DNA of 64,000 nt from Acorus gramineus (lineage: Eukaryota; Streptophyta; Magnoliopsida; Acorales; Acoraceae). Positions 67 to 55,705 of the stretch are shown one piece after another; position 1 is the stretch's first letter, and each line of letters starts with the position of its first letter. The notes beneath the pieces are model-generated. The model saw only the letters and a list, made by a program, of their open reading frames with translations, made no database searches and was not told the DNA's origin. The position numbers and the translations under genes are program-made. Location: the NCBI GenBank assembly GCA_030737835.1, contig JAUJYN010000019.1:1758433-1822432 (forward strand), given 5' to 3'.

Positions 67-80
67 CACCTTCATGCTCA

Positions 81-2042
81 GTGCGCGAAGAGCACCCGAT
101 TTTCCCTCCCTTCCTTTCCTCCCTTGGGTAAGCTTTCTTCCTCCCTTTTTCTTGTGTAGATGCTTGATTAGGAGGTGTTTTTGGGTATGCATGGTTTGGA
201 TGTGTGTTAGGGGTGTGGGAGGGCTGAGGAAGGTGGTGGGTTTGGCTCGGGCGCGCGTGCGGGGTCATCCGCGCGCGTGCGCGCGAGTCTGCGCGCGCAG
301 GCAGAGCAGGCGCGCGCAGTCGGGGGCGCTGGGGGAGTGCGCGCGTACGCGCGGGCGCACGGGCGTGCGCGTGGAGTGCTGCGCGGGGGCGCAGTGCGCA
401 GGGTGCGCGCGGGGGTGCTCCGCAGGGGCACAGTACGTGCGGATAGGCGCAGGGCTGGAAGAGCGGTGCGCGCAGGTGCGCGCGAGCGTGCACACGAGCG
501 TGCGGCGTGTCTGGGCGAGCGGGCAGGGGCGCGGCAGCGCGCCTGGGCGCGCGGGCTGGGGCGCGGCAGTGCGCCCGGGGTGCGTGCGTGAGTGCGTGCG
601 TGCGCACCCATGCGTGTGCGTGCGGGTGGCCGTGCGCATGGCTGCCCGGCGGTGCGGGAGTGTGTCGGGGCACTCGGACTGGCGCGCGTACGGGCCTGTA
701 TGCATGCTTGTCCGAGTGTTGGGTATTTCTATCGTATTTCTTGCGTATTTGTGTATTTTACTCACCACTTTGGTTTCCCATGTCTTGCAGATCTGGACGG
801 GCGGTCACGCGACGACCCGGGTATTGGTGAGTGGGACAATCCAACCCAGTAGGGAGGCGTTCGATGCACGTAGGCGTGCATTGCCCTCCCCTGGGGCACC
901 ATAATTGCGTATTAATTTGTAATAAGTGTAATATGTGCTATGCATGATCATTATGTTGTATCCATGCCACCTTAGGCTTTGTATGCTAGGAATATGCACC
1001 CTTATGTTGTGGATAGAGGCCTATACATCCTGATACCATGTTTTCATGCTAGGAAAGCCTCGACCTACGCATGCTTCCCATTTAGTTTAATTTATTTAAA
1101 TCAAATGCGAGCTTATGGTTATTAGCATGCCTTAGAGAATGTTATAACCTCGTGGTTATAATATATGCTTCCCCGCATCTTATTTATGCGCCCTGGTGGA
1201 ATTCAGAAGAATTCATGACATTAATAGAGCTGAAATCGGTGTCGGAGGATCCAATGAGATCGTATCCGTGTGGATAGGCTGTTTCTCTTCCCTTCGTTGG
1301 ATCCGTGTAGGGACTCCTCAGCGTTAGACAGGCTGTCCTGACAGAGGGCTCCCATCTGTAGGTACCTCTGATGCGTCGGACTGTGCTGATCGTGGGAGTA
1401 GACCAGGCGAGCTACAGAGTGGAGGAGAGGCTATCGGTGGACCAAGGGTGATTAACAGCCTAGTCAGTCCCAAAAGACCATGTGACCCCTTTGAGGGTGA
1501 GGGTGTGGTGGGTCGGCGATGTAGCGACCCACTGGATTGTGTAGTACTGCCACTTAGAGGCTATAAATAATTTGAGGTTAATATGAATTGTGATGCATGG
1601 GTTGTGCTATTCATTGAGCGTGTGGCTCACCCCTCGCATATATTTTTCTCCAGTGATATCGGATTCGGATCTGAAGGAGGAGCTCCCCGAGGCACGTCAG
1701 CAGTAGCGGAGCAGCGTCACGTTCTGCGTCTGAGAGACCATCAGCATCCCCCTTTGATTGTATGTATTGTATTCCGTGCTTAGGCACACGTTTGTATTAC
1801 ATTTGGATGTCATTGTATATATTGGCTCTCACAGGACAGTTGATTATGTATCGGGTCTGTAATATGTCTTTTGAATTACAGACTCAGTCTTTTAGCTTCC
1901 GCTATTTGTGTATATATTATGTCAGCCTCATTGTTGTCATTGTTGATGATTGTTTAGAGTATATTATTGACCTCCTGTTTAGACTGCTGATATCATATAT
2001 ACCATTGCCGCGTCTCGGGGATGGCCGCCCTGGGGCGTGACA
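81..2042 (+). repeat. 5' LTR of element 1, lacking its U3 start
   Basis: Aligns by eye with 7728-9671 of the right LTR, starting at GTGCGCGAAGAGCACCC. It ends in the family terminus GGGGCGTGACA, five bases before the primer site. From left to right it contains a donor-like GGGTAAGC (about 126-133), a GC-rich purine/pyrimidine core (about 245-660), the 36-nt block (791-826), an intron-like stretch, a second acceptor-like CTCACCCC...TCTCCAG (ending 1653) and the AT-rich U5 end. The U3 with the TTGAC array is missing. Confidence 0.85.
791..826 (+). other. 36-nt microexon-like block in the LTR
   Basis: It sits between an acceptor-like stretch (TACTC branch-like, pyrimidine-rich, ending TTGCAG) and a donor-like GTGAGTGG. 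The same 36-nt spacing occurs at 8403-8438, 10123-10158, 12493-12528, 18395-18430 (donor mutated to GTCAGT), 21776-21811 (acceptor mutated to TGCAA), 25367-25402, 33765-33800 and 57299-57334. On the minus strand it occurs at 31609-31644, 44943-44978, 52640-52675 and 54345-54380. The splicing role is inferred. Confidence 0.6.
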
Positions 2043-2047
2043 AAAGT

Positions 2048-2059
2048 TGGTATCAGAGC
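2048..2059 (+). other. primer binding site, initiator tRNA-Met
   Basis: TGGTATCAGAGC, complementary to the 3' end of plant initiator Met-tRNA, lies five bases after the LTR end. This is where minus-strand cDNA synthesis would start. Confidence 0.95.
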
Positions 2060-2163
2060 CTGGTCCTGTCAGAGCCCGTGGTCTTTTCTTTTCGTAGAGA
2101 TGAGTCCTAGGATTTCTATATGAGTATTCTGATCCTAGTGTCTGGTTTTCTTAGGTTGCTGAT

Positions 2164-6946: not shown

Positions 6947-6981
6947 ATGTTTTTGTATTTATTTTGAGGACAAAATTTTCT

Positions 6982-6994
6982 AAGGGGGGAAGAA
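6982..6994 (+). other. polypurine tract of element 1
   Basis: AAGGGGGGAAGAA lies immediately before the TGTTATATATG start of the 3' LTR. This purine run primes plus-strand synthesis in LTR retrotransposons. Confidence 0.92.
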
Positions 6995-9671
6995 TGTTAT
7001 ATATGTGTCACTTTTTGCCTTCTGGTCACCATTGGAGCATTCTGGCAGTTTTTCAACTTTTTCTTTTTTCGATCGGAACCGCTAAAATTTCAAACTTTTG
7101 GCTATCATCATGAGCTTGAGAACTCCGATTGAAAATCTAACTGCATATTATGTGTCCTGGTGCCATTTCAAGCCACTCACAAAAATTTCATCGAATTCCG
7201 GTAACGTTTCAGAATTTCGCAGTTCTGAATCGTATCCGGGTTTTGACCAAGCGAAAAGTCATTGGGAGACTTGACCAAGTCAAAGATGACTTTGACCAAG
7301 TCAATGTTGACCCTTGACTTGGTCAAAATCTTTTGTTTTCTAGTGTGGTTAGGTTGACCCAAGTCAAAGTTCACCTAACCTAGCTTAACCTAATTAATTC
7401 TAAGTGTAAGTGAGTGTGTGTGTGTGTGGCCTTTAAGTGAAGTCCACGCCCAAGAATAGTGCCCCTCCCTATTCATCTTCTTCTCCATCTCTCTCAAACT
7501 CTCTCTCCCTTCTCTTTAATCCTCCCTTTTGATCTAGTAGAAGGTGTTGGATTGGAAAACCCTAGAAGGAGACAAGGAAGGTGAGGACCCGATCTATCTT
7601 CCTATGGTCTCGGTTTCGCATTCCCCTTTTTTTTTCCTCCTCTCTAAGCTCCCTTTCTCATCTGTTTTCAGCCCCTCTTAGGCTGAGAAGAGGTCTTGGT
7701 AGTGGTGGCTTTGGTGGTGGCGAATCGGTGCGCGAAGAGCACCCGAAGTTCCCTCCTTTCCTTTCCTCCCTTGGGTAAGCTTTCTTCCTCCCTTTTCTTG
7801 TGTAGATGCTTGATTAGGATGTGTTTATGGGTATGCATGTTTTGGATGTGTGTTAGGGGTGTGGGAAGGCTGAGTTTTGGTGTGGGTTCGGCTCGGGCGC
7901 GCGTGCGGGGTCACCCGTGCGCGTGCGAGTGAGTCTGCACGCGCAGGCGTGCAGGCGCGTGCAGTCGGGCACGCTGGGGGCGTGCGCGCGTACGCGCCAA
8001 CGCGCGGGCGTGCGCGCGGAGCGCTACGCAGGGGGGCAGTGCGTGCGGTGCGCGCGGGGTGCTGCGCAGGGGCGCAGTGCGCGCGGGTGCACCCGGGGCT
8101 GGACGCTCGGTGCGTGCGGGCGGGCGCGAGTGTGCGTGCGAGCGTGCGGCATGTCTGGGCGTGCGGGCTGGGGCGCGGCAGTGCGCCCGGGGCGCGGGTG
8201 TGCGTGCGTGCGTGCGCACCCGTGTGTGCGCGTGTGGGTGGCCGTGCGCATGGCTGCCCGTGGGTGCGGGAGTGTGTCGGGGCATTCGGACTCGCATGCG
8301 TACTGGCCCATATGCATGCTTGTCCGAGTGTTGGGTATTTCTAGCGTATTTTGTATGTATTTGTGTATTTTACTCACCATTTTGGTTTCCCATGTCTTGC
8401 AGATCTTGACGAGCGGTCACGCGATGACCCGGGTATTGGTGAGTGGGACAATCCAACCCAGTAGGGAGGCGTTCGATGCACGTAGGTGTGCATTGCCCTC
8501 CCCTGGGGCTCCATAGTTGCATATTAGCTATTATTAAATATAAACCGTGCTATGCATGATCATTATGTTGTATCGATGCCCCCCTTAGACTTTGTATGCT
8601 AGGGATTTGCACCCTTATATTATGTATGAGACCTACGCATCCTGATACTATGTTTTCATGCTAGGAAAGCCTCGACCTATGCATGCTTCCCATTTAGTTT
8701 AATTTATTTAAATCAAATGCGAGCTTATGATTATTAGCATGCCTTAGATAATATTATAACCGTGTTGTTATAATATATGTCTCCCCGCATCTTAGTTATG
8801 TGCCCTGGAGGAATTCTGAAGAATTCATGACATTAGTAGAGTTGCAATCGGTGTCGGCGGATCCAAGTGGATCGTATCCGTGTGGGTAGGCTGTTTCTCT
8901 TCCCTTCGTTGGATCCGTGTAGGGACTCCTCAGCGTTAGACAGGCCGTCCTGACAGAGGGCTCCCATCAGTAGGTACCTCCTGATTGTGTTTCGGACTGT
9001 GCTGAATCGTGGGAGTAGACCAGGCGAGCTACGGAGTGGAGGAGAGGCTATCGGTGGACCAAGGGTGATTAATAGCCTAGTCAGTCCCAAAAGACCATGT
9101 CACCAGCTTGAGGGTGAGGGTGAGGGTGTGGTGGGTCGACGATGTAGCGACCCATTGGATTGTGTTGTTATTGCCACTTAGAGGCTATAAATGATTTGAG
9201 GTTAATATGAATTGTGATGCATGGGTTGTGCTATTCACTGAGCGTGTGGCTCACCCCTCGCATGTATTTTTCTCCAGTGATATCTGAGTCGGATCTGAAG
9301 GAGGAGCTCCCCGAGGCACATCAGCGGTAGCGGAGCAGCGTCACGTTCTGCGTGTGAGAGGCCGTCAGCACCCCCCTTTGATTGTATGTATTGTATTCCG
9401 TGCTTGGGCACACGTTTGTATTATATTTGGATGTCGTGTATATATTGGCTCTCACAGGACAATTGATTATGTATCGAGTCTGTTATGTCTTTGAATTACA
9501 GATTCAGTCTTTTAGCTTTCCGCTATTCGTGTATATATCATGTCAGCCTCATTGTTGTCTGTGTTGTCATTTTTTATGTTGTTTAGAGTATGTTATTGAC
9601 CTCCTGTATAGACTGCTGATATCATATATACCATTGCCGCGCCTCGGGGATGGTCGCCCTGGGGAGTGACA
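6995..9671 (+). repeat. 3' LTR of element 1, complete
   Basis: 2677 bp, starting TGTTATATATG and ending GGGGAGTGACA. U3 holds a cluster of TTGAC cores (7241-7370), a GT microsatellite (about 7417-7429) and a pyrimidine-rich stretch without a clear TATA box. ACCCTAGAAGG followed by a donor-like AAGGTGAGG lies near 7560-7585. Next come the GGGTAAGC donor-like site, the GC-rich core (about 7888-8290), the 36-nt block (8403-8438) and the second acceptor-like site (ending about 9277). Confidence 0.9.
7241..7370 (+). promoter_or_regulatory. W-box (TTGAC) cluster in U3
   Basis: About ten TTGACC/TTGACT cores lie on both strands within 130 bp, arranged as direct and inverted GACCAAGTC / GACTTGGTC units. 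TTGAC(C/T) is the core bound by plant WRKY factors. Similar arrays are present at about 24306-24425, 32630-32800, 46070-46195, 53750-53870 and 55325-55450. That WRKY factors drive these LTRs is an inference. Confidence 0.55.
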
Positions 9672-10164
9672 GGGAGAGGCTGGGCGCGCGTTGGGGGGCA
9701 GTCTGCGCATGTGCGCGCGCAAGCACGCGCGCAGAAGGGCGCTGGCAGGCGCAGGCGGGCACGCAGACGCGCGATGGCGCGTGCGCGCAGAGTGGGCGCA
9801 CGGGTGCGCGCGGGCGCTGGCGCGAGAGGGGGTGCGCGCGGGGAGTGCAGGCGAGTGCGCTCGGGCGTGCGCGAGCGTGCGATCGCGCGGGCAATGCGTC
9901 TGGGCGCAGGGCTGGGGGCCAGTCGGCGCGCGCGCGTGCTGGGGCATGCGTGGGGCTGCCCAGAGTCTCGGGTAGGTGCTGGGGCACCCGGGCATGCGTG
10001 CGTACGCGGTGCTCGCATGCGTGTGAGCCCGTATGCATGCATGTCTAAGTTTTGGTATTTCTAATGATTTCTAAGTGTAAATTGTGATGTTACTCACCAA
10101 GCTTGATGCCCTTACCCTGCAGATCTCGTCGGATGGGATGCGCGAGGTCCCGTGTATGGTGAGT

Positions 10165-11396: not shown

Positions 11397-12840
11397 TGAA
11401 ATCTAAAATTAGATTGTCACTATTCATCATCCCTACCAAAAGCTTTCTCTCTCTCCCCTCTCTCCTTTTCTTCCATTTGATACCCTTAGAGCCCTCAAAC
11501 CCTAAAACCTAAAGCATAAGAAGTGTAGATCGGGTCCCGATCTACACCTCGGTGCTTTCAAATCCCAATTCCGACGAGTCTAGCCTCTCCATCCCCCCTC
11601 TTTCTCCTCTGTTTTGGGCCATTTCGAAGGCCGAGTGAGATCCGGGCGTTGGAGGGCTTTGGGGAAGCGTTTCGGTGCGCGGAGAGCAACCGGACATCCC
11701 TTCCTCCCCCTTGGTAAGCTCTTTTTCCTCTTATTTTTGGCTTAGATGCATGTTAGGAGGGGGGTTTTGTGTTTGGGTGGTGGTCGGCGGCTGTGGGAGG
11801 CTGTCGGAGGTGGTTGGGGGCGGTCGGAGGCCGTCAGAGGCCATTGGGTGGGTGGTGGAGGTGCTCGGGCAATGGGGGGTTCTATTTCTGGCAGCAGGCA
11901 GCAGCGGCAGCAGCACTAGCAGCGCGCAGGCTTGGCGCGCGCGTGCGTGCGCGCGGGTGTGCGCTCGCGAGGAGCTGGTGGTGAGCTGTGCGCGAGGTGC
12001 TGGTGGAGCAGCTGTGCACGAGGTGCTGGGCGAGCTGTGCGCGAGGTGCTGGGCGAGCGGTGCTGGGGGTGATGGCCGAGAGGGCAGTGCGTGCAGGGGC
12101 GTCGTGCAGGGTGCGCGCGGGGCGCGGCGAGGCAGGGTGGTGCGCGCGGGGTGCGCGCGGGGAGTGCGGGGTGCTCGCGGGCCGGCACGAGGCGTGCGGG
12201 GCGCGCCCAGGCCGCTGCGGGTTGGCGCAGTGGACGCGCGGTGCCCCGGGTGGTGCGGCGGCGTGTCCAGGCGGCGGGCAGGGGCCCGGCAGTGCACGGG
12301 GTGCGCGGGCTGAAGCGCGGCGGTGCACCCGGGCGGTCGGGTGGCCGTGCGGGTGGTTGCTGGGGTGCTCGGGCTAGCGTGCGTACGGGGCGTATGCACG
12401 TTTGTCGGTGTGTTGGGTATTTTAGAGTATTTTTAGTGTATTTTGGGGGTATTTGTGTATTTTACTCACCAAGTCAATACCCTGTCTTGCAGATCTTGAC
12501 GGACGGTCGCGCGACGACCCGATCTCTGGTGAGTGGGACGATCCAACCCAGTAGGGAGGCGTTACATGCACTTGGGCGTGTACCGTCCTCCCCTGGGGCA
12601 CCATAGTAAATATTGACCTGTTAATATGAAAAGCTATGAAAACATGATAATCTGTAGTATGCATGCCACCCTAGATTTGTATGCTAGGGACTTATACCCT
12701 TAGGACCCGTATCAGAGCCATGCACCCTGTTATCATGTTTCCATGCTAGGAAGCCCGACCGATGCATGTTCCCATTTAGTTTAATTTATTTAAATAAAAT
12801 GCGAGCATGTGATTATTAGCCTGTGTTAGTGAATATTATA

Positions 12841-16977: not shown

Positions 16978-19974
16978 TGTTAAATATGTGTCACTTTTAA
17001 TCTGCTGGTAACCGTTGGAGCGTTCTGGTAGTTTTTTATTTTTTTTCGGTTTTCGATCAGAACCACTAATTTTTGGACTGTCAGCTATCGTCCTGAGTTA
17101 GAGGACTCCGATTGGAAATCTAACTGCATATTTGGTGCCCTGGTGCCATTTTAGGCCTCTCACGAAAATTTCATCGAATTCCGGCAACGTTTCTGAAATT
17201 TTGCAGTTCCGGGGCGTATACGGGTATTTTAAGTGACTTGCTATATAAGTGAGATCTAAAATTAGATTTGCCACTATTCATCATCCCTACCAAAAGCTTT
17301 CTCTCTCTCCCCTCTCTCCTTTTCTTCCATTTGAGCCCCTTAGAGCCCTCAAACCCAAAAACCTAAAGCATAAGCAGTGTAGATCGGTTCCCCCGGTGCC
17401 TTCAAATCCCGATTCCGGCGAGTCTAGCCTCTCCGTCCTCCCCTCTTTCTCCTCTGTTTTGGGCCATTTTGAAGGCCGAGTGAGATCCGGGCGTTGGAGG
17501 GCTTTGGGGAAGCGTTTCGGTGCGCGGAGAGCAACCGGACACCCCTTCCTCCCCCTTGGTAAGCTCTTTTTCCTCTTCTTTTTGGCTTAGATGCATGTTA
17601 GGAGGGGGGTTTTGTGTTTGGGTGGTGGTCGGCGGCTGTGGGAGGCTGTCGGAGGTGGTTGGGGGAGGTCGGAGGCCGTCGGAGGCCATTGGGTGGGTGG
17701 TGGAGGTGCTCGGGCAGTGGGGGGTTCTGTTTCGGGCAGCAGGCAGCAGCGGCAGCAGCACAGGCGGCGGGCAGGCTGGGCGCGCGCGTGCGTGCGCGCG
17801 GGCGTGCGCTCGGGAGGAGCTGGTGGCGAGCTGTGCGCGAGGTGCTGGTGGCCAGCTGGGCGCGAGGTGCTGGGCGAGCTGTGCGCGAGGTGCTGGTCGA
17901 GCAGCTGTGCGCGAGGTGCTGGGCGAGCGGTGCTGGGGGTGATGGCCGAGAGGGCAGTGCGTGCAGGGGCGTCATGCAGGGTGCACGCGGGTGCGCGCGG
18001 GGCGCGGCGAGGCAGGGGTGGTGCGCGCAGGGTGCACGCGGGGGCGTGCGGGGTGCTCGCGGGCCGGCGCGAGGCGTGCGAGGCGGGCGCGGGCTGCTGC
18101 GGTTGGGCGCACTGGATGCGCGGTGCCCCGGGTGGTTCGGCGGCGTGTCCAGGCGGCGGGCAGGGGCCCGGCGGTGCGCCGGGTCCGCGGGCTGAAGCGC
18201 GGCGGTGCACCCGGGCGGTCGGGTGGCCGTGCGGGTGGTTGCCGGCCGTGCGGGTGGTTGTCGGGGTGCTCGGGCTAGCGTGCGTACGGGGCGTATGCAC
18301 GTTTGTCCGAGTGTTGGGTATTTTAGTGTATTTTTAGTGTATTTTTGGGGTATTTGTGTATTTTACTCACCAAGTTGATTACCCTATCTTGCAGATCTTG
18401 ACGGACGGTCGCGCGATGACCTGATCTCCGGTCAGTGGGACGATTCGACCCAGTAGGGAGGCGTTACATGCACTTGGGCGTGTACCGTCCTCCCCTGGGG
18501 CACCATAGTAAATATTGACCTGTTAATATGAAAAGCTATGAAAGCATGATAATCTGTAGTATGCATGCCACCCTAGATTTGTATGCTAGGGACTTATACC
18601 CTTAGGACCCGTATCAGAGCCATGCCCCCTGTTATCATGTTTCCATGCTAGGAAAGCCCCGTCTGATGCATGTTCCTTTTACGTTTAATTTATTTAAATA
18701 AAATGCGAGCATGTGATTATTAGCCTGTTTTAGTGAATATCATAGGGGAGGGGCCTTGCGAGGACAGCGGTGAGACCCGGGCTAGGGTACTCCGTGTTCC
18801 TTGTTTGGTTGTCGGGATGTCCTATATCGGGACCTCACGCTGCCCTCCCAAGGATTCTTTCCCCGTTAATATTCCAACCTTGTTATAACTATTATGCATG
18901 TTCCCCGCATCTTGGTTATCCGCCCTGGAGGAATTTTGAGGAATTCAGGACACCAGAGTTGTTAGGATGTGTTGTCTGCGGATCCGAGTGGATCATATGC
19001 GATGGATAGGCTGTTCTGTTCCCTTCGTTGGATCCGTGTAGAGACTACCCCGGCGTTGGAAAGGTCGTTCCGTGCAGGGGCTCCCATCAGTAGGCGCCTC
19101 CTGATTTGGTAGAAGGACTGTGCTGAATGTGGGAGTGGCCAAACGACCTACGGAGTGGGGAGAGACTATCGGTGGACCAAGGGTGACCAACAGCCTAGTC
19201 AGTCCCAAGAGCCTAGGTCACCTATTGGAGGGTGAGGGTGAGGGTATGGTGGGCCGGCGATGTGGCGACCCACTGGATTGTAAGTCCCAATATCCTTGGT
19301 CACCCAGTGAGGGTGAGGGTGAGGGTGTAGCGGGTTGGCGGTAGCGACCCGCTGGTTTTGTGTAGTTAGTCCCAATATCCTTGGTCACCCATTGAGAGGT
19401 GAGGGTGAGGGTGTGGTGGGTTAGCGGTAGCGACCCACTGGATTGCGGAGTTGTTGCCATTTATGGCTTGAGTAATGTGTTTGTGGATTAAATTATATCT
19501 GGTTGTGGTTAATATAAGCTGTGATGCATGGGTTGTGTTGTTCACTGAGCGTGTGGCTCACCCCTCGCATAATATTTTTCTCCAGTGTCATCTGAGTCGG
19601 ATCTGGAGGAGGAGCTCCCCGAGGGACTTCATCAGTAGCGGAGTAGCGCCACGTCCCGCGAGTATCAGAGGCTATCAGCATTCCTTTGCTTGTATGTATT
19701 ATATTCCGTGCTTGGGCACGTGTTTGTGTATTATTTGGATGTCTTTGTATATATTGGCTCTCACAGGACATATGATTATGTATCGAGTCTGTAGTATGTT
19801 TTGATTACAGATTCAGTCTTTTTAGCTTCCGCATTTGGTGTATATATTATGTCAGCCCTGCTTTTGGTTGTGTTGTCATTTTAGCTGTTGTGTGAGTATG
19901 TTATTGAACTCTTGCTACTGATATCATATATATACTTGCCGCGTCCCGGGGACGGCCGGCCCTGGGGCGTGACA
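16978..19974 (+). repeat. 3' LTR of element 2
   Basis: 2997 bp, same order as the 5' LTR: TATATAAG (17242-17249), GC-rich core, 36-nt block (18395-18430, donor changed to GTCAGT), 120-bp module (18745-18864), G-rich tandem modules and the end GGGGCGTGACA. It is longer mainly through small duplications in the GC-rich core, for example GTGCGGGTGGTTG repeated near 18228-18260. The duplication GTACT follows at 19975-19979. Confidence 0.92.
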
Positions 19975-21198: not shown

Positions 21199-23441
21199 GA
21201 GATGCTGATGAGGTGGTGGTAGTTGTGGTGGTCGTTGAGGTGATCGTGGGTGTGTCGAGAGCCCTGCATCTCCCCATTTCCCTCCCACTCTTTTGGTAAG
21301 GCAGAACTCTGTCTTGTAAAGATCTCTGTGAACTAGTATTTAGAGGCATATTTTTCTGATTGTGTCCACATGTGATATGATCCTTCATGTGTCTAGATAT
21401 TATATATGAAATTTGGTGTCATTATGATATCTGTGTTGTAAGTTAGAATCTGTTTTGCATGGATTTTCCAAATTCACGAGGGAATTAACCTACTTCTGGA
21501 AATATTTTATTTCGGGCTTGTAGAGGTAAAATTAGGTTATGATGTCTTCATGGATTATGATCCCAACATGTCAGAGAATGTGTATGATTTATTTCATAAA
21601 ATTTGGATGTGTATTTGGGGCTGTGGAGATCAAATGGTAGGGTTGGTTGTAGCAGGTCTAGCGGTTTTGCTCGATTATGTGTCAAGGAGTTGTTATGCAT
21701 GTTGTGGAAACTTTCAAGAGTTATGTAGTCTTTGTTTAAAGCACTCACCCCCTTTTTGATGCCCTGGCCTTGCAAATCTCGTCGATTGGATGCGCGACGA
21801 CCTGGGTATTGGTGAGTGGTTCGATCCAACCGTTCCGGAAGCGTTGGATGAACGTAATCGTGCGTCGCACATCCGTTGGGCACCCTGACTATACTACTTA
21901 TTTAGATAAGTAGTGTGGTCATGTCTGAAACATAATATGCTAGCTATTTGCATGCTAGATTATTATAGCTCGTATATTGCGTAGAACCCTCTTATTCTAC
22001 CTTATACTGGCATATGTATAGTATTTATGTGTGAATGATCATGGTTGCATGTATCTTGTGTGTTTTTATGGGTGTATAGAATATGGCATGACTTAGGTAA
22101 TCCCTTCTAGTAATACTAACCTATTATTATACATATCCAGCATGATTAAGCCTGGGTTAATAAACAGGCATATGCCTAATATTCCCTTGCAATAGGACTT
22201 GAGGGCGTGGTGTAGTTGTTGCGCCCATGCTAATGGGGCAAAGCTATGACCAACTTCTAGAGATGATGAGCTCTCTCTCGCCCTCTCTCTTTGTGCGAAC
22301 TGAGTAAGTAGATGTGGTTCCTACTTGACTCAGGTTCGTTTGGGAATATTGGCATGCACCTGTTAATGCGTGAGATCGCGCTTGATTCTTCTCTTTTAAG
22401 TTGGTGATATCCAACGCATGTTAGGGTATACTTGTATGCTAGTATGAATAATGGCCTTGTATGCATGTTTAATTAGGCCATACCATGTATGCATGATATG
22501 TTGTTTATGCTTTTATCCATGTTAGGGAGTACTCCCATGATTAATTATTATGTTATCGTGAATGTGGTTTATCTACACAACTATGGCAGAATTCTTCTAT
22601 TATGTTATGCGCATGTTAGACTAATTGTGCCTACCCGTGCTAGGCGTGGGTATGACCCTTAGTCGGGTTGTACCTTATTAGTTAGAGCGCAAGCGATGTA
22701 ATCACCCTTGCATCCGTGTGATGCACTCGTATGGAATTCAGGAGAATTCATTATTGTATCGGTTTTGTTAAACCGGTGGCCATTGCATTATGTTAGGCCT
22801 ACCCATGCCAGGTGCGTGTATGAACTGCCTGTTGGTTTATATGCCTTTCGGCTAATTTTTGCACGAGAGCAGAGGTAACTCCTCGTGTCCGAGTGACGCA
22901 CCTATGTGGGAGTTCAAGAGTATTCGATATCATCGGTATGTGATTATCCAGAGTAGTTTACTTTTCCATTGGGTTCTCTTTGCGAACACGGAGTATTTCC
23001 TCCCAATATCGTCCGTGTTGAAGCGACCTGGGTTGTAGCTGTGCTGTTAGAGGGCCCCCACCTATAGGTACTATCGATGCATGAAGCAAGATGCATTGAT
23101 CATGGGAGTATACTAGGTAGAGGTTACCCGGGAGAGGGCTAACAAATGATATTGCGAGTGCGGAATTGTTCTCTTCTTCATCGGATCCGTGTCGATGCTA
23201 CCCGGTGTTGTAGCTGTCCTGACAGAGGGCCCCCACCTTTAGGTACTATTGATGCATGCGGCAAGATGTACTGATCATGGGAGTATACCAAGTAGAGACT
23301 AACCGAGAGAGGGTTACCGGATGATGAAGGGTGTAGAGCAAACGGATTTATCCCAAAAGTCTCTAGGGTCACCCCTCTGGGGGCTAGGGTGAGGATGAGT
23401 TGAAGTCACGTCGTCATGTGACTCTTATACCCGTCGAGTAT
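21199..23441 (+). repeat. 5' LTR of element D, left part
   Basis: Matches 56741-58970 of the 3' LTR nearly throughout. It carries the 36-nt block (21776-21811, acceptor changed to TGCAA), CCATGCTAATGGGGCAAAGC (about 22225) and two copies of the GACAGAGGGCCCCCACC-like module. It ends in AGTAT (23437-23441), the left target duplication of LTR F. No gene is seen. Confidence 0.85.
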
Positions 23442-24057: not shown

Positions 24058-26647
24058 TGTTATATATGTGTCACTTTTAGCCTTTTGGTCACCTTTGGGA
24101 CATTTCTGACAGTTTTTCAGATTTTTCTTTTTTTTGATCGGAACCGCTAAAATTTTGGACTTTTAGCTATCTGCATGAGTTTGAGAACTCCGATTGAAAA
24201 TCTAACTGCACATTATGTGTCCTGGTTCCATTTCGAACCACTCACGAAAATTTCATCGAATTCCGGTAACGTTTCAAAATTTGGCAGTTCCGAATCGTAT
24301 CCGGGTTTTGACCGAGTGGGAATGTCAAAGGGGGACTTGACCAAGTCAAAGAAGACTTGGACCAAGTCAAATTTGACCATTGACTTGGTCAAATACTTTT
24401 GTTTTTTTGTGTGGTTGGGTTGACTCAAAGTCAAGCCCCACCAAACCCTAATTGTTCCAAGTGTGTGAGTGTGTGTGTGTGTGTGTGTGGCCCTATTAGT
24501 GGGCGTCCCCCTTCTCTTTCCCATCTCACTCTCCCTCTCACTCACTCCATCACTCACTCCCTCTTCTTTCTTTGCTCCATTAGAGTTAGTAGAAGAAGAA
24601 GAAGAAGAAAACCCTAGAAGGGAAAAAGAAAGGTAAGGGTGTGATCTACCTTTGGGTGGTGTTTGATTGTTTTCCCTTTTCTCTATCTCCCTCTCATGGC
24701 TTCCCCCACCCCTGTTTCAGCCATTTTTAGGGCTTGAGAGTGGCTGAGGTGGTGGTGGTCTTGGTGGTGGCGGTTGTGGTGGTTTGGTGCGCAAAGGGCA
24801 CCCGAGCTTCCTCCCTTTTCCTTTCCCTCCTTGTTGGTAAGTCTTCCTCCTCCCTTAGCTTGTTTAGATGATTGATTAGGGTGTTTAAGTGGTTATGCAT
24901 GCTTTGCATTGGTGGTAGGGGGTGTGGGTGGGCTGAGGAGGGGGTCGAAGGGGCTCGGGCGCGCGGGCGGAGCCATCCGCGCGCGCTCGCGCGTACGCGC
25001 AGACGCTCGGGTGGGACCGCGGGGTGCTGCGCGGGCGCGCAGTGCGCGCGGGTAAGCGCCGGGCTAGACGCGCGGTGCGCGCGGGCGCGCGCGAACGTGC
25101 GCGCGCGCGCGTGGCAGCGCGTCTGGGCACGCGGGCAGGGGTGCGCCTGGGGCGCTGGGGCGCATGCGTGCGTGCGCGTGCGGGGGGCCATGCGTGTGGC
25201 TGCCTGAGGGCTCAGTGGGTGTGGGGGCACTCGGACTGCGTACGTACGTGCGTGCTCGCATGCGTGCGGGTCCGTATGCATGCTTGTCCGAGTATTGGGT
25301 ATTTCTAGTAAATTTCGTATGTATTTGTGTAGTTTACTCACCATATTGAATGCCCATGTCTTGCAGATCTTGGCGAACGGTCACACAACGACCCGGGTTT
25401 CGGTGAGTGGGTCAATCCAACCCAGTAGAGAGGCGTTCGATGCACGTAGGCGTGCATTGCCCTCCCCTGGGGCACCATAATTGTATATTAACTTGTGATA
25501 AATGAAAACTATGCAATGCATGATTAATATGATGTAACCATGCCACATTAGACCTTGTATGCTAGGGATATGCACTCATATATCATGTATAGAAGCCCAT
25601 AGATGCCTAGACACCATGTCCCTTGATTGGAAACCCCCGATCTATGCATCTTTCCCATTTAGTTTAATTTAATTAAATCAAAATGAGAGCATATTGTTAT
25701 AAGCATGCCTTGAGAATATTATAACCTTGTTGTTATAATATATGTTTCCCCGCATCTTAGTTATGCGCCCTGGAGGAATTCTTGAGAATTCGTGACATTA
25801 GTAGTGTTAGAAATCGTTGTCGACGGATCCAAGAGGATCGTATCCGTGTGGGTAGGCTGTTTTCTCCCTTTCGTTGGATCCGAGTAGGGACTCCCCGGCG
25901 TTGGAAAGCTGTCCTGACAGAGGGCTCCCTTTCGTTGGATCTGTAGGTACCTCCGATGCGTCAGACAGTGCTGATCGTGGTAGTATACCAGGTAGAGGCT
26001 ACGGAGTGTGGGAGAGGCTACCGGGTGGACCAAGGGAGGAGAGCAGTCTAATCTGAAAAGGCCCATGTCCCCCCCCTTAAAGGGTGAGGGTGAGGGTGGG
26101 ATGGGTCGGCGATGTTACGACCCACTAAGCTTGTGTAGTTACTCCCGTTTAGGGACTATAATTATTTAAGGTTAATATGAGTTGTGTTGCATGGATTGTG
26201 CCATTCACTGAGCGTGTGGCTCACCCCTCGCATATTCTTTTCCTCCAGTTGTATCTGAGTTGGATCTGAAGGAGGACCTCCCCGAGGCATCACAGCAGTA
26301 GCGGAGCAGCGTCACGTTTTGGGTTCTGCGAGTGAGAGGCCATCAGCATCCCCTTCTTGCTTGTATGTATTGTTGTCCGTGCTTGGGCACACACTTGTAT
26401 TTGGATGTCTTTGTTTATATTGGCTCTCACAAGACAGTTGATTATGTATTCTGGTCTGTAATATGTTTTTGAATTACAGACTCAGTCGTTTAAGCTTCCG
26501 CTATATGTATATATATTATGTCAGCTACATTATTGATTGTGTTGTCACTCTTGATGTTGTTTAGAGTATTTTATTGATCTCCTGTATAGACTGCTGATAT
26601 TATATATATTTGCCACGTATCGGGGACGGCCGCCCTGGGGCGTGACA
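24058..26647 (+). repeat. 5' LTR of element 3
   Basis: 2590 bp, TGTTATATATG to GGGGCGTGACA. U3 has the TTGAC array (24306-24425) and a GT microsatellite (about 24468-24488). AACCCTAGAAGGG precedes a donor-like AAGGTAAGG (about 24631). A GC-rich core (about 24955-25265), the 36-nt block (25367-25402) and an acceptor-like TCTTTTCCTCCAG near 26250 follow. Confidence 0.92.
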
Positions 26648-30396: not shown

Positions 30397-32735
30397 TGTC
30401 ACGCCCCAGGGCGGCTGTCCCCGATACGTGGCAAGTATATATAATATCAGCAGTCTATACAGGAGATCAATAACATACTCTAAACAACATCGAAAATGAC
30501 AACACAGACAATAAGGTAGCTGACATAATATATACAAATAGCGGAAGCTTAAACGACTGAGTCTGTAATTCAAAGACATATTACAGACCCGATACATAAT
30601 CAACTGTCCTGTGAGAGCCAATATACCCAATAACATCCAAATACAAGTATGTGCCAAAGCACGGAATACAATACATACAATCAAAAATAGGATGCTGATG
30701 GCTTCTCGCTCGCAGAACGTGACGCTGCTCCGCTACTACTGTGGTGCCTCGGAGAGCTCCTCCTTCAGATCCGACTCAGATATAACTGGAGAAAAATATA
30801 TGCGAGGGGTGAGCCACACGCTCAGTGAATAGCACAACCCATGCATCACAATTCATATTAACCTTAAATAATTTATAGTCCCTAAAACGGGAGCAACTAC
30901 ACATTCTAGTGGGTCGTTTCATCGCCAACCCACCTCCCCCCTCACCCTCACCCTTTCCGGGGGGGTGACATGGGCCTCTTGGGGCATACTAGACCGCTCT
31001 CCACCCCTGGTCCACCCGGTAGCCTCTCCCACCCTCGTAGCCTCCACCTGGTATACTCCCACTATCAGTACTGTCCGACACATCGGAGGTACCTACGGAC
31101 GGGAGCCCTCTGTCAGGTCAGCCAACGCCGGGGAGTTCCTACATCGGATCCAACCAAAAGGAGAAGACAGCCTACTCACACGGATACGATCCTCTTGGAT
31201 CCGTCGACACCGATTTGTAACGCTAATAATGTCATGAATTCTCAAGAATTCCTCCAGGGCGCATAACTCAGATGCGGGGAAACATATATTATAACAACAA
31301 GGTTATAATATTCTCTAAGGCATGCTTGTAACTATATGCTCTCATTTTGATTTAATTAGATTAAACTAGATGGGAAACATACATAGTTTGGGGCATGGTG
31401 TCTAGGCATGCATAGGCCTCTATACGTGATGTATGGGTGCATATCCCTAGCATACAAGTCTAAGGTGGCATGGATACATCATATTAATCATGCATGCATA
31501 GCTTTACATTTATTACAAGTTAATACGCAATTATGGTGCCCCAGGGGAGGGCAATGCATGCCTACGTGCATCGAACGCCTCCCTACTGGGTTGGATTGTC
31601 CCACTCACTGAAACCCGTGTCATCGCGTGACCGTCCGTCAAGATCTGCAAGACATGGGCATTCAATATGGTAACTAAACTACACAAATACATAAGAAATT
31701 TACTAGGAATACACAACACTCGGACAAGCATGCATACGGACCCGCACGCATGCGAGCACGCGCGTACGCACGCGAGTCCGAGTGCCCGACACCCTCCCAA
31801 ACCCTCGGGCAGCCATACGCATGGCCCCCCGCACGCGCACGCATGAATGCGCACGCCCGCACGCGCCCCTGCGCCTCAGGCGCACTGCCGCGCCCCTGCT
31901 CGCTCGCCCAGACGCGCTGCCGCTCGCGCGTGCACCTCACGCCCCCGCGTAGCACTCTGCGCGCACGCCCGCGCGCCTGCGCGTACGCTTGCGCGCTCAC
32001 CAGCGCGCTCGTCTGTGCGTGCCAGCGCCTGCCTGCGCGCGCAGACACCTGCGCACGCGCGCGGATGACTCCGCACGCGCGCCCGAGCCCCTTCCACCCC
32101 CTCCTCAGCCCATCCATACCCCCTAACATCCATGCATACCATGCATACCCAGTCACACACCCTAAACAAGCATCTAAACAAGCATAGGGAGGAGAAGGAC
32201 TTACCCAAGGAGAGGAAGAACAAGGGGGGAAGCTCGGGTGCCCTTCGCGCACCGAATCGCCACCACCAAGACCACCACCACCTCAGCCTCTAGCAAGGCC
32301 TAAAGATGGCTGAAAACAGGGGGGAAGAGGAAGCCATGAGAGGAGGTAAACAAAGGGGAAAGCAAAACAAAAACCATGGAAAGATAGATCCAACCCTTAC
32401 CAATCTTTTTCCCTTCTAGGGTTTTCTTCTTCTTCTTCTTCTACTAGCTCTAATGGAGAAAATAAAGGGAAGGGAGAGATGGATATTTGATTTTGTGTGT
32501 ATGAGAGAAGAAGAGACGAGAAGAGAACATGAAGGGGACGCCCACTTAGGGCACACACACACACACACACACTCACTCACTCACACACTTGGAACAATGT
32601 TTAGGTGGGTTTGACTTTGAGTCAACCCAACCACACAAACAAACAAAAGAAATTGACCAAGTCAATGGTCAAACTTGACTTGGTCAAAGTCCTCTTTGAC
32701 TTGGACAAGTCTCCCTTTGACATTCCCGCTCGGTC
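30397..32735 (-). repeat. antisense LTR arm of the palindrome in element 3
   Basis: Begins with the exact LTR terminus TGTCACGCCCC joined to pol and runs backward through the second acceptor-like site, the 36-nt block (31609-31644), the GC-rich core (about 31740-32095) and the AC microsatellite (about 32558-32582). It stops in the TTGAC array at about LTR position 248. Details, such as the lack of the TTGGGT insert near the second exon-like block, make it closer to the element 1 LTR than to the 5' LTR of element 3, so it came from another copy. Confidence 0.85.
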
Positions 32736-35033
32736 AAAGGGGGGACTTGACCAAGTCAAAGAAGACTTGGACCAAGTCAAATTTGACCATTGACTTGGTC
32801 AAATACATTTATTTTTTTGTGTTGTTGGGTTGACTCAAAGTCAAGCCCCACCAAACCCTAATTGTTCCAAGTGTGTGAGTGTGTGTGTGTGTGTGTGTGT
32901 GGCCCTATTTGTGGGCGTCCCCTTCTTTTCCCCATCTCACTCTCCCTCTCACACACTCCATCACTCATCCCCTCTTCTTTGTTTCTTCCATTAGAGTTAG
33001 TAGAAGAAGAAAAAGAAAACCCTAGAAGGGAAAAAGAAAGGTATGTGTGTGATCTACCTTTGAGTGGTGTTTGATTGTTTTCCCTTTTCTCTATCTCCCT
33101 CTCATGGCTTCCCCCACCCCTGTTTCAGCCATTTTTAGGGCTTGAGAGTGGCTGAGGTGGTGGTGGTCTTGGTGGTGGTGGTTGTGGTGGTTTGGTGCGC
33201 AAAGGGCACCCGAGCTTCCTCCCTTTTCCTTTCCCTCCTTGTTGGTAAGTCTTCCTCCTCCCTTAGCTTGTTTAGATGATTGATTAGGGTGTTTAAGTGG
33301 TTATGCATGCTTTGCATAGGTGGTAGGGGGTGTGGGTGGGCTGAGGAGGGGTGGAAGGGGCTCGGGCGCGCGCGCGGATCGCGCGTACGCGTAGACGCGG
33401 CGTGCGCGCTGGGTGCTGCGCGGGCGCGCAGTGCACGCGGGTACGCGCTAGGCTAGACGCGCGGTGCGCGCGGCAGCGCGTCTGGGCGCGCGGACAGGGG
33501 CGCTGCAGTGCGCCCGGGGGGCTGGGGCACGGCAGTGCGCCCGGGTGGCGTGCGTGCGCATTCGTGCGTGCGCGTGCGGGGGGCCATGCGTATGGCTGCC
33601 CGAGGGATCGGGTGGGTGTCGGGGCACTCGGACTCGCGTGCGTACGTGCGTGCTCGCATGCATGCGGGTCCGTATGCATGCTTGTCCGAGTATTGGGTAT
33701 TTCTAGTAAATTTCGTATGTATTTGTGTAGTTTACTCACCATATTGAATGCCCATGTCTTGCAGATCTTGGCGAACGGTCACGCAACGACCCGGGTTTCG
33801 GTGAGTGGGTCAATCCAACCTAGTAGGGAGGCGTTCGATGCACGTAGGCGTGCATTGCCCTCCTCTGGGGCACCATAATTGTATATTAACTTGTCATAAA
33901 TGAAAACTATGCGATGCATGATTAGGATGATGTGACCATGCCACATTAGACCTTGTATGCTAGGGATACGCACTCATATATCATGTATAGAGGCCCGTAC
34001 ATGCCTAGACACCATGTCCCTTGATTGGAAATCCCCGATCTATGCATGTTTCCCATTTAGTTTAATTTAATTAAATCAAAATGAGAGCATATAGTTATAA
34101 GCATGCATAGAGAATATTATAACCTTGTTGTTATAATATATGTTTCCCCGCATCTTAGTTATGCGCCCTGGAGGAATTCTTGAGAATTCGTGACATTAGT
34201 AGTGTTAGAAATCGTTGTCGATGGATCCAAGAGGATCGTATCCGTGTGGGTAGGCTGTTTTCTCCCTTTCGTTGGATCCGAGTAGGGACTCCCCGGCGTT
34301 GGAAAGCTGTCCTGACAGAGGGCTCCCATCTGTAGGTACCTCCGATGCGTCGGACAGTGCTGATCATGGGAGTATACCAGGTAGAGGCTACGGAGTGTGG
34401 GAGAGGCTACCGGGTAGATCAAGGGAGGTGAGCAGTCTAATCTGAAAAGGCCCATGTCCCCCCCCTTAAAGGGTGAGGGTGAGGGTGGGATGGGTCGGCG
34501 ATGTTACGACCCACTAAGCTTGTGTAGTTACTCCCGTTTAGGGACTATAATTATTTAAGGTTAATATGAGTTGTGTTGCATGGATTGTGCCATTCACTGA
34601 GTGTGTGGCTCACCCCTCGCACATTCTTTTCCTCCAATTGTTTCTGAGTCGGATCTGAAGGGGGAGCTCCCCGAGGCATCACAGCAGTAGAGGAGCATCA
34701 CGTTTTGGGTTCTACGAGTGAGAGGCCATCAGCATCCCCTTCTTGCTTGTATGTATTGTTGTCCGTGCTTGGGCACACACTTGTATTTGGATGTCTTTGT
34801 TTATATTGGCTCTCACAAGACAGTTGATTATGTATTCTGGTCTGTAATATGTTCTTGAATTACAGACTTAGTCGTTTAAGCTTCCGCTATATGTATATAT
34901 ATTATGTCAGCTACATTATTGATTGTGTTGTCACTCTTGATGTTGTTTAGAGTATTTTATTGATCTCCTGTATAGACTGCTGATATTATATATATTTGCC
35001 ACGTATCGGGGACGGCCGCCTTGGGGCGTGACA
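32736..35033 (+). repeat. 3' LTR of element 3, U3-truncated (sense arm of the palindrome)
   Basis: Begins at about LTR position 266 within the TTGAC array and runs to GGGGCGTGACA, followed by AGATC. It closely matches the 5' LTR of element 3, including the TTTTGGGTTCT insert near 34702. The GC-rich core is shorter (about 33360-33660). The 36-nt block is at 33765-33800, and the second acceptor has lost its AG (CCTCCAATTG near 34635). Confidence 0.88.
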
Positions 35034-43677: not shown

Positions 43678-46437
43678 TGTCACGCCCCAGGGCGGCCGTC
43701 CCTGAGACGCGGCAATGGTATATATGATATCAGCTGTCTATACAGGAGATCAATAAAATACTCTATACAACATCGAAAATGACAACACAGACAGAAAGGT
43801 GGCTGACATAATATATACAAAATAGCGGAAGCTAAAAGACTGAGTCTGTAATTCAAAAGACATATTACAGACCCGATACATAATCAACTGTCCTGTGAGA
43901 GCCAATATATACAACGACATCCAAATATAATACAAACGTGTGCCCAAGCACGGAATACAATACATACAATCAAAAGGGGATGCTGATGGCCTCTCACTCA
44001 CAGAACGTGACGCTGCTCCACTACTGCTGATGTGCCTCGGGGAGCTCCTCCTTCAGATCCGACTCAGATATCACTGGAGAAAAATATATGCGAGGGGTGA
44101 GCCACACGCTCAGTGAATAGCACAACCCATGCATCACAATTCATATTAACCTCAATTAATTATAGCCCTTAACACGGGAACAACTACACATTCTAGTGGG
44201 TCGTCTCATCGCCAACCCACTTTCCCTCCCCTCACCCTCACCCTTTCCGAGGGGTGACATGGGCCTCTTGGGGCATACTAGACCGCTTTCCACCCCTGGT
44301 CCACCCGGTAGCCCTTTCCCACCCTCGTAGCCTCGACCTAGTCCACTCCAACTACCAGTACTGTCCGAGCACATTGGAGGTACCGGACGGAAGCCCTCTG
44401 TCAGGTCAGCCATCGCCGGGGAGTACCTACATCGGATCCAACCAATAAGGAGAAGACAACCTACTCACACGGATACGATCCTCATGGATCCATTGACACC
44501 GATGGTAACGCTAAATAATGTCATGAATTCACAAGAATTCATCCAGGGCGCATAACTAAGATGCGGGAGACATATATTATAACAACAAGGTTATAATATT
44601 CTCTAAGGCATGCTCACATTGATTTAATTAAATTAAACTAGGTGGGAGACATGCACAGATCGGGGCAAGGTGTCTAGGCATGCATAGGCCTCCATACATG
44701 ATGTAAGGGTGCATATACCTAACATACAAATCTAAGGTGACATGGATACATCACATTAATCAATATAAGGGTGCATATCCCTAGCATGCAAGTCTAACGT
44801 GGCATGGATACAACATAATATTCATGCAAGGCATAGTTTACATTTAATACTAGCTAATATGCAACTATGGTGCCCCAGGGGAGGGCAATGCACGCCTACG
44901 TGCATCGAACGCCTCCCTACTGGGTTGGATTGTCCCACTCACCAACACCCGGGTCGTCGCGTGATCGCCCGTCAAGATCTGCAAGACAGGGGCATTCAAA
45001 ACGGTGAGTAATTACACAAATACATAAGAAATACGCTAGAAGTACCCAGCACTCGAACAAGCATGCATACGGGCCCGCAGGCACGCGAGTCCGAGTGCCC
45101 CGACACCCTTCCGCACCCACGGGCAGCCATGCGCACGGCCACCCACACGCGCACGCACGGGTGCGCACGCACGCCCGCGCCGCAAGCGCACTGCCGCGCC
45201 CCAGCCCGCGCTCCCAGACGAGCTGCTGTGCCCCTGCCCGCGCACCCAGACACGCTGCCGCTCACGCGCGCACGCATGCTCGTGCGCGTCCGCGCGCACC
45301 GCGCATCCAGCCCTGCGCCTACCCGCGCGTACTGCACCCCTGCGCAGCACCCCGCGCACACGCCCACGCGCACCCCGCGCACTGCGCCCCCGCGCAGCAC
45401 CCCGCGCGCACGCCCGCCCGCACACCTGCGCTTCTGCGCACACGCGCGGGCGCCCGTCAACGCACCCGACTGTGTGCGCCAGCGCTTGCCTGCGCGCGCA
45501 GACTCGCGCGCACGCGCGCGGATGACCCCGCACGCGCGCCCGAGCCAATCCCACCCCCTTCCTCAGCTCTCCCACATCCCTAACACACATGCATACCATG
45601 CATACTCCATATGCACACCCTAACATGCATCTAAACAAGGAAATGGGAGGAGAAGGACTCACCCAAAGGAGGAAGAACAAAGGGATGAAACCGAGTGCCT
45701 TCGCGCACCGAAACACCACCACCAAAGCCACCACCACCAAGCCTCTTCTCGGCCCAAGAATGGCTGAAAACAGAGGAGAAAGGGAGCTAAGAGAGGAGGT
45801 CAACATAGGGGAAAGCAAATCTAACACCATGGAAAGATAGATCGGGTCCTTACCAAACTTTTCTCCTTCTAGGGCTTTCTTGTTCGAACTCTTCTACTAG
45901 ATCAAATGGGGGATTTAAAGAGAGGGGATGTGAGATTTGTGTGTGAGTGAGAGAGAGAAGAAGATGAATAATGAAGGGGTGCACGCCTAAGTGGCTCACA
46001 CACACACACACACACTTAGCCACTCACACACTCACATTAGGGCACTTAGGGTATTTTTGGTGAGCTTTGACTATGGTCAACTCAACCACACAAACAAACA
46101 AAGGAGGTTGACCAAGTCAATGGTCAAATTGACTTGGTCAAAGTCATCTTTGACTTGGTCAAGTCTCCCAATGACTTTTCGCTTGGTCAAAACCCGGATA
46201 TGATTCAGAACTGTGAAATTCTGAACGTTATCGGAATTCGATGAAATTTTCGTGAGTGGCTTGAAATGGCACCAGGACACATAATGTGTAGTTAGATTTT
46301 CAATCGGAGTCCTTAGGCTCAGGATGATAGCTAAAAGTCCAAAATTTTAGCGGTTCCGTTCGAAAAAAGAAAAAGTTAAAAAACTGCCAGAATGCTCCAA
46401 TGGTGAGCAGAAGTCTAAAAGTGACACATATATAACA
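43678..46437 (-). repeat. LTR shared by elements 4 and 5
   Basis: 2760 bp, TGTTATATATG to GGGGCGTGACA on the minus strand. It has a polypurine tract before it and a primer site after it. It contains the TTGAC array (46070-46195), an AC/GT microsatellite (about 45998-46014), the GC-rich core (about 45065-45550) and the 36-nt block (44943-44978). A CATATCCCTAGCATGCAAGTC-type unit is doubled near 44700-44800. Confidence 0.92.
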
Positions 46438-54105: not shown

Positions 54106-55705
54106 CCAATATTCTATACATCCATACACATTTCAAACAAATACATGCCCATACTAGAGGGGCGCATGCAACACAATCATTCATACATGTATATAAGCCT
54201 AGCATGCAAAATATCTACATATTATAGCTTAAGCATGGCCATACTACTTATCTACACAAGTAGTATAGCTAGGGGGCCCCATCGATGCGTGACGCGCGTC
54301 TACACGCATCCCGAGAGGGGGGGGGATTGGATCGAACCACTCACCAATACCCGGATCGCCGCGCGTCCGGTCTACGAGATCTGCAAAACACAACCAATGA
54401 TCCATAATTAAATTATGGAACCTCCTATCACACATATAAGCTTACTTCATGAAGACCCTAACCCCTGATACTTCCATATTATCACCCAAGACACATGCAA
54501 CCAACTCCTTGACACTCAACCAAGCAAAACTGCTAAACCTGCTGCAACCAGCCCTACTAATTGGTCTTCACAGCACCCAATACACTTCCCAAAATTATGA
54601 AATAAATCATGCACATTCTATGATATGCTGGGATCATAATCCATGAAGACATTAGAACCTAATTTTGCCTCTACAATCCCGAAACAAATCATTTCCCGGA
54701 GTAGGTCAATTCCTATGCGAATCTGGACAGATCATGCAAAACTGGTTCTAACTTACACCACAGATATCATAATGACCCCAAATTTCATATATAACATCTA
54801 GACACATAGCTGATCAAATCATAAGAAGACATAATCCTAAAAATATGCCTTTAAATACTAGATTCACTGAGATCTTTAAAAGACAGTGAGCTGCCTTACC
54901 GAAACAGGGGGAGGGAATTGGGGAGATGCGGGGTTCTCGACACACCCACGACCACCTCAACCACCACCACCACTACCACCACCTCATCAGCCACTCCACC
55001 AGCCTTCCTTGGCTGAAAACAGGGGGGGGGGGGGGGGAAGGCATGAGAAGGAGCTAATGAGAAGAGAAACAACAACAACAACTACAACAACATTAACACA
55101 CCTTTGAGTGCTCTTCCTCTTACACTTTCCTCTTCTTTTGCTTCTTCTTCTCCTTCTTTTCTACTTCTATTTAGCACAAAAAAAGGAAGAGGGAGTGAAG
55201 GAGAGAGTGAGAGGGAGAGGGAGAGGGAGATGAAGGGGACGCCCACTTCAAGCACACACACACACTCACACACACACACTCACACACTTAGGCATTAAAT
55301 GGTGAAAAAGGGGGTGGGTGGGGATTGACTTTGAGTCAACCCAACCAAACTAGAAAACAAAACCCATTGACCTAGTCAATGGTCTTCTTTGACTTGGTCT
55401 AGGTCTACTTGACTTGGTCAAAGTCACCCTTTGACACTTCAAAATCGGTCAAAACCCGGATACGATTCGGAATTGCCAAATTTCCTAAAACATTACCGGA
55501 ATTCGATGTAATTTTTATGGGTGGTACTAAACAGTACCATGACCCATAATATACAGTCAGATTTCCAATCAGAGTACTCTAACTCCCGCAGGTGGCTAAA
55601 AGCCAAAATTTTAGCGGCTCCGATCAAAAAAAACAAAAAGGCCCTGAATGACCCAGAAGTGACCAAGGCTTAACCGAAATGGCTCCAAATGACACAGGCA
55701 TAACA
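54106..55705 (-). repeat. antisense LTR E, U3-to-middle part
   Basis: On the minus strand it starts TGTTATGCCTGTG at 55705. U3 holds TTGAC cores (55325-55450) and CA/TG microsatellites (about 55252-55285). A purine/pyrimidine leader with a 16-base G run (55022-55037) and the 36-nt block (54345-54380) follow. It ends near TGTATAGAATAT, where the element 4/5 composite begins. It lacks the CpG-rich core of the other families. The probable continuation is 40441-41361. Confidence 0.75.

Follow-up and report, generated by a model that had tools for sequence, protein, structure and literature searches.

Results and discussion

Retroelements of the window

The 64,000-nt stretch of DNA analysed here, referred to as the window, carries Ty3/gypsy elements with LTRs of 2-3 kb, in the middle of which sit 13 blocks of 36 nt (Table 1). 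Pfam searches placed RVP_2, RVT_1 and RT_RNaseH in one ORF, RT_RNaseH, Integrase_H2C2 and rve in the next ORF of the same element, and Retrotrans_gag in the family-C element. The resulting order, gag followed by protease, reverse transcriptase, RNase H and integrase, is that of Ty3/gypsy chromoviruses of the Tekay/Del clade. A chromodomain (PF00385) is weakly matched at the integrase C-terminus (E 1.5e-4, 22.1 bits vs a cut-off of 25.1). Right after the LTR ends at 2048, 14069, 26653, 43672 (minus) and 51372 (minus), and with one mismatch at 38095, stands TGGTATCAGAGC, which we take to be the initiator-Met tRNA primer binding site. The elements are called Tekay/Del-like here, a clade name that rests on gene order, the weak chromodomain match and TGGTATCAGAGC.

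Several elements are incomplete or rearranged. For the first LTR of the window, similarity to its partner begins at position 78 (7725 in the partner); its first ~730 nt (6995-7724 in the partner) are missing, positions 1-77 being other sequence. The family-C element at 11124-19974 (plus) has a gag gene at 14183-15583 and, judged from self-comparison and its ORFs, only the end of pol between its LTRs, and looks non-autonomous. Two family-B LTRs, 30397-32738 on minus and 32733-35034 on plus, lie head to head and form a large palindrome.

A preliminary description of this DNA had interpreted the blocks as microexons of fixed length in a spliced LTR leader, with splice signals on both sides. All 13 are present where it put them (its minus-strand positions being the low ends of the blocks), each exactly 36 nt long from the acceptor-like to the donor-like edge. 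The pattern TGCAGATCT-N32-GTGAGTGG, with up to three mismatches, matches 13 times in the window, vs a mean of 0.21 and a maximum of 2 in 100 shuffles. Splice-signal motifs flank most of the window copies on both sides; four deviate, namely 18395, with GTCAGTGG at the donor-like edge, 21776, whose acceptor-like edge ends in TGCAA, 31644, with GTTACC in place of CTCACC, and 54380, which is without the CTCACC tract. We also noticed a 14th, diverged copy at 63243-63871 (plus), homologous to the others from GTGAGTGG (63409) onward and with the 36-nt block replaced. Its nearest upstream TTGCAG ends at 63242, 166 nt before GTGAGTGG, and lies behind a GC-rich 62-bp repeat arrayed in 5.3 copies (62910-63239).

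Table 1. Coordinates of LTR features in the window; introns are predicted, and a slash within a motif marks a putative splice junction
Feature	Position	Strand	Remark
Complete LTR (TGTTATATATG...GGGAGTGACA), 3' copy of element 78-9671	6995..9671	+	polypurine tract just upstream
Intron 0, 91 nt, AAG/GTGAGG...TTTTCAG/CC	7581..7671	+	borders by eye
Intron 1, 628 nt, CTTGG/GTAAGC...CTTGCAG/ATCT	7775..8402	+	equivalent exactly absent in 28 genomic copies
Intron 1 of 5' LTR, 663 nt	128..790	+	holds GC-rich core
Intron 1, family C 5' LTR, 779 nt	11714..12492	+	
Intron 1, family C 3' LTR, 836 nt	17559..18394	+	
Intron 1, family E, 480 nt	21296..21775	+	acceptor mutated to TGCAA
Intron 1, family B, 530 nt	24837..25366	+	
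Intron 1, family B, 520 nt	33245..33764	+	
Intron 1, family E, 461 nt	56838..57298	+	donor GTATGG
Intron 1, family B, 560 nt	31645..32204	-	
Intron 1, family A, 684 nt	44979..45662	-	
Intron 1, family A, 655 nt	52676..53330	-	
Intron 1, family F, 519 nt	54381..54899	-	
36-nt block, predicted first 36 nt of exon after intron 1	791..826	+	pattern match
36-nt block	8403..8438	+	pattern match
36-nt block, family D	10123..10158	+	best alignment with one insertion and one deletion
36-nt block	12493..12528	+	pattern match
36-nt block, then GTCAGTGG	18395..18430	+	pattern match
36-nt block	21776..21811	+	pattern match
36-nt block	25367..25402	+	pattern match
36-nt block	33765..33800	+	pattern match
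36-nt block	57299..57334	+	pattern match
36-nt block	31609..31644	-	pattern match
36-nt block	44943..44978	-	pattern match
36-nt block	52640..52675	-	pattern match
36-nt block	54345..54380	-	pattern match
Nearly invariant stretch from supposed donor GTGAGTGG	827..849	+	
Covarying hairpin: outer CCCAG/CTGGG (stem), middle GGGAGG/CCTCCC (stem), apical stem	845..895	+	conserved
Strong acceptor-like tract TTTTTCTCCAG, further down LTR	1643..1653	+	no genomic copy joining block to tract found

Predicted introns upstream of the block

Alignment of the LTRs revealed, upstream of the block, a CT-rich stretch that ends in YYTYG(G)/GTAAG; the sequence from there to the block differs strongly from family to family. 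Of 43 copies, 32 have a recognisable upstream donor of this kind, at 461-1361 nt from the block, and 11 (10123 and ten genomic copies) do not. In a set of 32 copies aligned at the acceptor, CTCAC lies ~30 nt before the AG in 26; among the six copies lacking it, L009, L028 and L029 have CTAAC, and 31644, 54380 and L010 have neither. We presume that CTCAC or CTAAC, standing near the 3' end of the predicted intron 1, is branch-point-like. TGCAG was part of the pattern used to find genomic copies and hence gives no independent support for the acceptor. The GC-rich core, placed within an intron by the preliminary description, does lie in intron 1 as delimited here (5' LTR, Table 1). Intron 1 has 64-74% GC in 27 of the 30 copies measured and 37-38% in three; since plant introns are described as generally U-rich (PMC3735527), the composition of the 27 counts against reading this segment as an intron.

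Some families have a further candidate, intron 0, of about 91 nt (AAG/GTRAGG...TTTTCAG/CC), located further upstream than intron 1. For the example in Table 1 the automated pattern started at an earlier GT and gave 128 nt.

Genomic copies without intron 1

Real splice sites, together with occasional copying of spliced RNA, predict genomic LTRs that lack the stretch to the base. In 398.6 Mb of genome sequence (137 contigs), the junction YCTTGG/ATCTNGACGGNCGGTC gave 8 matches and YYTYG/ATCTNGACGGNCGGTC gave 20, with no match for either reversed-pattern control. Inspection of each in its context confirmed exon-1-like sequence fused to ATCT in 28 of 28 intron-less copies, a figure to be read as a count and not as a frequency. 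The interval bordered by GT...AG is thus precisely removed in all of them, and we consider its exact absence best explained by reverse transcription of spliced RNA. The left edge of the block, with its exact TTGCAG/ATCT junction, accordingly behaves as the true 3' splice site that had been proposed, and the proposal of a spliced LTR leader is likewise upheld by these junctions. With the joining position left free (0-12 nt) there were 406 matches, of which the first 100 comprise 8 exact junctions, the other 92 having an acceptor or a slightly altered form of it. CCTTGCAGATCT occurs in four of the 92, and these may represent either normal acceptors or deletions of DNA between CTTG repeats.

Eight of the intron-less copies were followed further upstream. 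Intron 0 is absent as well in four (L040, L041, L042 and L045), is kept in L039 and L044 and was not recognised in L046. In L043 (contig C8, about 17537040, minus), also without intron 1, it is cut to a 12-nt GT...AG remnant. L039, the one copy in which target duplication was looked at, is a complete intron-less solo LTR with CAGAG on both sides (a 5-bp target duplication).

Three pairs of intron-less LTRs, each with both members on one strand, have spacings of 5123, 5115 and 5088 nt; over 408-416 aligned positions, identity within the pairs is 96.8%, 93.5% and 99.8%, respectively. The blocks of the family-C element of the window are 5902 nt apart, which minus intron 1 (779 or 836 nt) makes 5123 or 5066; the spacing of the pairs is that expected for the family-C type. 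This arrangement fits elements in which both LTRs were rebuilt from spliced RNA. The pair on contig C54 is insecure, since a third intron-less LTR there, L071, is 94.7% identical to L073, vs 93.5% for the supposed partner of L073, L072. Six of the 28 copies being paired LTRs, the set stands for about 25 insertions.

A tree was built from 58 copies, 30 with the intron and 28 without. Those without it fall into 15 maximal clades and require 11 parsimony changes, vs 14-25 with shuffled labels, and are therefore partly clustered. The pattern suggests several losses, some with later spread or explained by sampling gaps, their number being uncertain with about 265 nt, sparse sampling and midpoint rooting.

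The right edge of the block

The copies that bear out the left edge speak differently about the right one, which had been taken for a donor in use. All 28 run straight through it, with GTGAGTGG in 27 and ATGAGTGG in one (L068), so that splicing on both sides of the block is found at the left edge and in 0 of 28 copies at the right. The junction of the block with exon 3 at the next LTR acceptor had no genomic match (the pattern covers the A, B and C type of downstream segment only), and neither had the junction with the gag acceptor. Presence of GTGAGTGG was no condition for entering this set of 28. Counted from GTGAGTGG, 21 of the 23 positions +1 to +23 are identical in at least 26 copies, with +12 shared by 24 and +14 by 23; the donor bases thus differ little from the next 20 nt, most of which are as conserved. 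We also considered a TTGG/CCAA stem spanning the right edge and rejected it, the CCAA side being nearly fixed and its partner variable.

These observations weigh against the view that the block is a true microexon, an exon of the translated RNA with the rest of the leader as intron, GTGAGTGG serving as a donor solely in mRNA that is not copied and splicing there removing either the hairpin or the primer binding site. Without the latter, RNA could not be reverse-transcribed, and its absence from the genome would be expected; the block/exon-3 product would keep that site, though, and its junction is missing all the same. As a donor, GTGAGT scores reasonably well (with ranking by base frequencies, its median rank among all GTs in a copy is 6, over 43 copies), acceptor-like sequences follow, both the strong tract down the LTR and TTCTTAG just before the gag ATG in five elements, and the diverged copy at 63409 is homologous only from the right edge on. 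Against this stand the uninterrupted passage of every spliced copy, donor bases no more conserved than most of the next 20 and a block length that varies from 29 to 39 nt. We regard this view as unlikely, at odds of roughly one to four, and the block is probably not a tiny exon of its own.

A related and slightly less probable scheme is a switch with two signals, in which RNA that goes on to be copied may undergo intron-1 splicing and GTGAGTGG splicing yields the 36-nt microexon only in translated mRNA. If it were true, GTGAGTGG-spliced RNA would be without the hairpin and/or the primer binding site and would never be copied, and the hairpin behind the donor would mark genomic RNA, like the packaging signal behind the major splice donor of retroviruses. 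In the leaders of HTLV-1 and foamy virus, a splice donor lies in R/U5 with the packaging signal behind it. The LTRs described here resemble such leaders in having a leader splice signal with adjoining structured RNA, and differ in that donor and acceptor are both inside the LTR, the retroviral acceptor lying outside.

The hairpin downstream of the block

The hairpin just downstream folds with a mean z of -3.1, and z is below -2 in 39 of 43 copies; 10123, 21776 and 54380 are among the four exceptions. Its middle stem covaries, with 22 cells changed on both sides, and in the apical stem, where subfamilies use different registers, one register gives 68% pairing and another 72%. The hairpin matched no known RNA family at the Rfam gathering score, and a search for tRNAs gave none either. 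We propose the hairpin as a candidate packaging or dimerisation element.

A folded element of this strength and covariation would also be expected if there were no splicing, the block being the 5' part of a conserved RNA/DNA element made up of block, 23-nt stretch and hairpin, and the intron-less copies having arisen by DNA deletion. The four CCTTGCAGATCT matches might indeed be deletions at the shared CTTG. Twenty-eight losses ending exactly at GT...AG in diverse copies are nevertheless unlike deletion, as are the four copies with a second exact GT...AG loss, and we find this explanation scarcely credible.

Length and reading frame of the block

A block pattern with flexible spacing gave 14,222 exact matches genome-wide and none in the reversed-pattern control; such a number in 398.6 Mb marks a very successful family. 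Among the first 100 matches, 77 blocks have 36 nt, 10 have 39, nine have 37, three have 35 and one has 29; blocks shorter than 36 nt make up 331 of the 14,222. Thirty-six nt is the modal length and not a rule, and the claim that bases vary and length does not fails outside the window. The family-D copy 10123 was considered as a case of compensating indels that keep 36 nt; this was rejected, for its genomic relatives have 37 or 39 nt, and the copy is no evidence for a length constraint. A self-contained RNA hairpin was likewise rejected as the reason for 36 nt, since the block alone folds like shuffles (z -0.8 to 1.6). GGTC/GACC within the block is 97% pairable, and both sides are changed in 6 cells.

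All 34 distinct 36-nt blocks leave the reported DL..R.RDDPGIG-like frame open, vs 27 and 20 of the 34 for the other two frames. As a general property it does not hold: the 35- and 37-nt copies break it, for which reason we rejected a coding frame as the cause of the length, and stops occur in L012 and L030. It is very improbable that the frame belongs to a small spliced protein encoded by the LTR, in which it would run on, without a change of phase, through the exon-like segment downstream (..SESDLKEELPEA..stop). Such a protein would account for the openness of the frame, for third positions being the most variable and for the in-phase run of the downstream segment to a stop at the same place in those A, B and C copies of the window in which the segment was recognised. 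It is opposed by the phase shift in 35-, 37- and 29-nt blocks, by the two stops just named, by the in-frame TAG with which exon 1 ends in L036 and L037 and by the lack of genomic matches for the block/exon-3 junction that it requires.

Preferred reading and proposed mechanism

Taken from the genomic copies, the reading that we prefer, with a probability of about 0.88, is that a spliceosomal intron of ~0.46-1.4 kb lies wholly inside the LTR of a very abundant Tekay/Del-like family and is spliced. On this reading the block is the first 36 nt of the downstream exon, which runs through GTGAGTGG into the nearly invariant stretch and the conserved hairpin. Nothing in the data pointed to the host-gene origin of the block that the preliminary description had raised as a possibility.

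The roles that we attach to this intron, namely its leader/R position, its effect on translation and the part played by the hairpin, are tentative and fall somewhat short of even odds, with start site, polyadenylation and degree of splicing deduced from the DNA. The RNA would start upstream, near the CT-rich tract, which would place the intron in the leader (R region), and the usual template for copying would be the unspliced RNA. Splicing would take out a long, mostly GC-rich leader segment, probably for a better Gag mRNA, and the spliced RNA would be copied now and then, giving rise to intron-less LTRs. The hairpin probably helps the RNA to serve as template, by packaging or dimerisation, because every spliced copy seen retains it.

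Comparison with known systems

The nearest known case would appear to be the SpIREs of human L1, spliced integrated copies that number 131 among 6,609 annotated full-length L1s of six subfamilies (PMC5860796). As far as that account goes, they share with the LTRs studied here an intron in the promoter/leader region, spliced RNA that is copied and integrated, an exact intra-leader junction by which such copies are told, and the status of a minority among copies; L039 adds an integrated spliced copy with target duplication. L1 is a non-LTR element, whereas here the intron lies in the LTR and an intron-less copy should show the change at both ends. Our elements, with LTRs and gag-pol, are thus SpIRE-like in working only and are no LINEs. 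SpIREs are called generally dead ends (PMC5860796), whereas some intron-less copies described here form small clades.

According to a review, plant LTR retrotransposons are generally without introns, and Ogre and EVADE stand out as exceptions (PMC12786077). Barley BARE1, Arabidopsis EVADE and Ogre resemble our elements in being spliced, which in BARE1 and EVADE yields a Gag-only mRNA beside the full-length RNA (PMC3735527, PMC12786077, PMC6317226). As these sources describe them, the introns of all three are in the internal coding region, unlike the present one, which lies inside the LTR and has spliced copies in the genome. Maize CRM, from another chromovirus clade, also makes spliced RNA, with back-spliced CRM1 RNA and, in one RIP sample, 5 CRM1, 2 CRM2 and 125 CRM3 normal-spliced reads (PMC7010299); in the accessible part of that report the junctions are not placed in the LTR and no integrated spliced copies are mentioned. 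Rice Retrosat2, assigned to the Tekay clade (PMC6317226), is similar in its very long LTR (3.29 kb) and very long R (245-2266), and differs in that the word intron occurs 0 times in the main text of its description (PMC3485330). A tapeworm TRIM element was rejected as a precedent, the case described being solo LTRs spliced into neighbouring genes and not an LTR-internal intron (PMC4558846). An intron inside a plant LTR was not met in the literature searched, which comprised titles and abstract openings, with subscription papers mostly outside.

Conclusions

An intron inside an LTR is unusual because the very sequence that is copied to rebuild both ends of the element is itself spliceable. Splicing can here be inferred from genomic copies alone, and the many copies, together with those exactly lacking the intron, would form a natural record of the RNA isoforms that have been reverse-transcribed. 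Such a record would make the separation of translated from replicated RNA directly testable.
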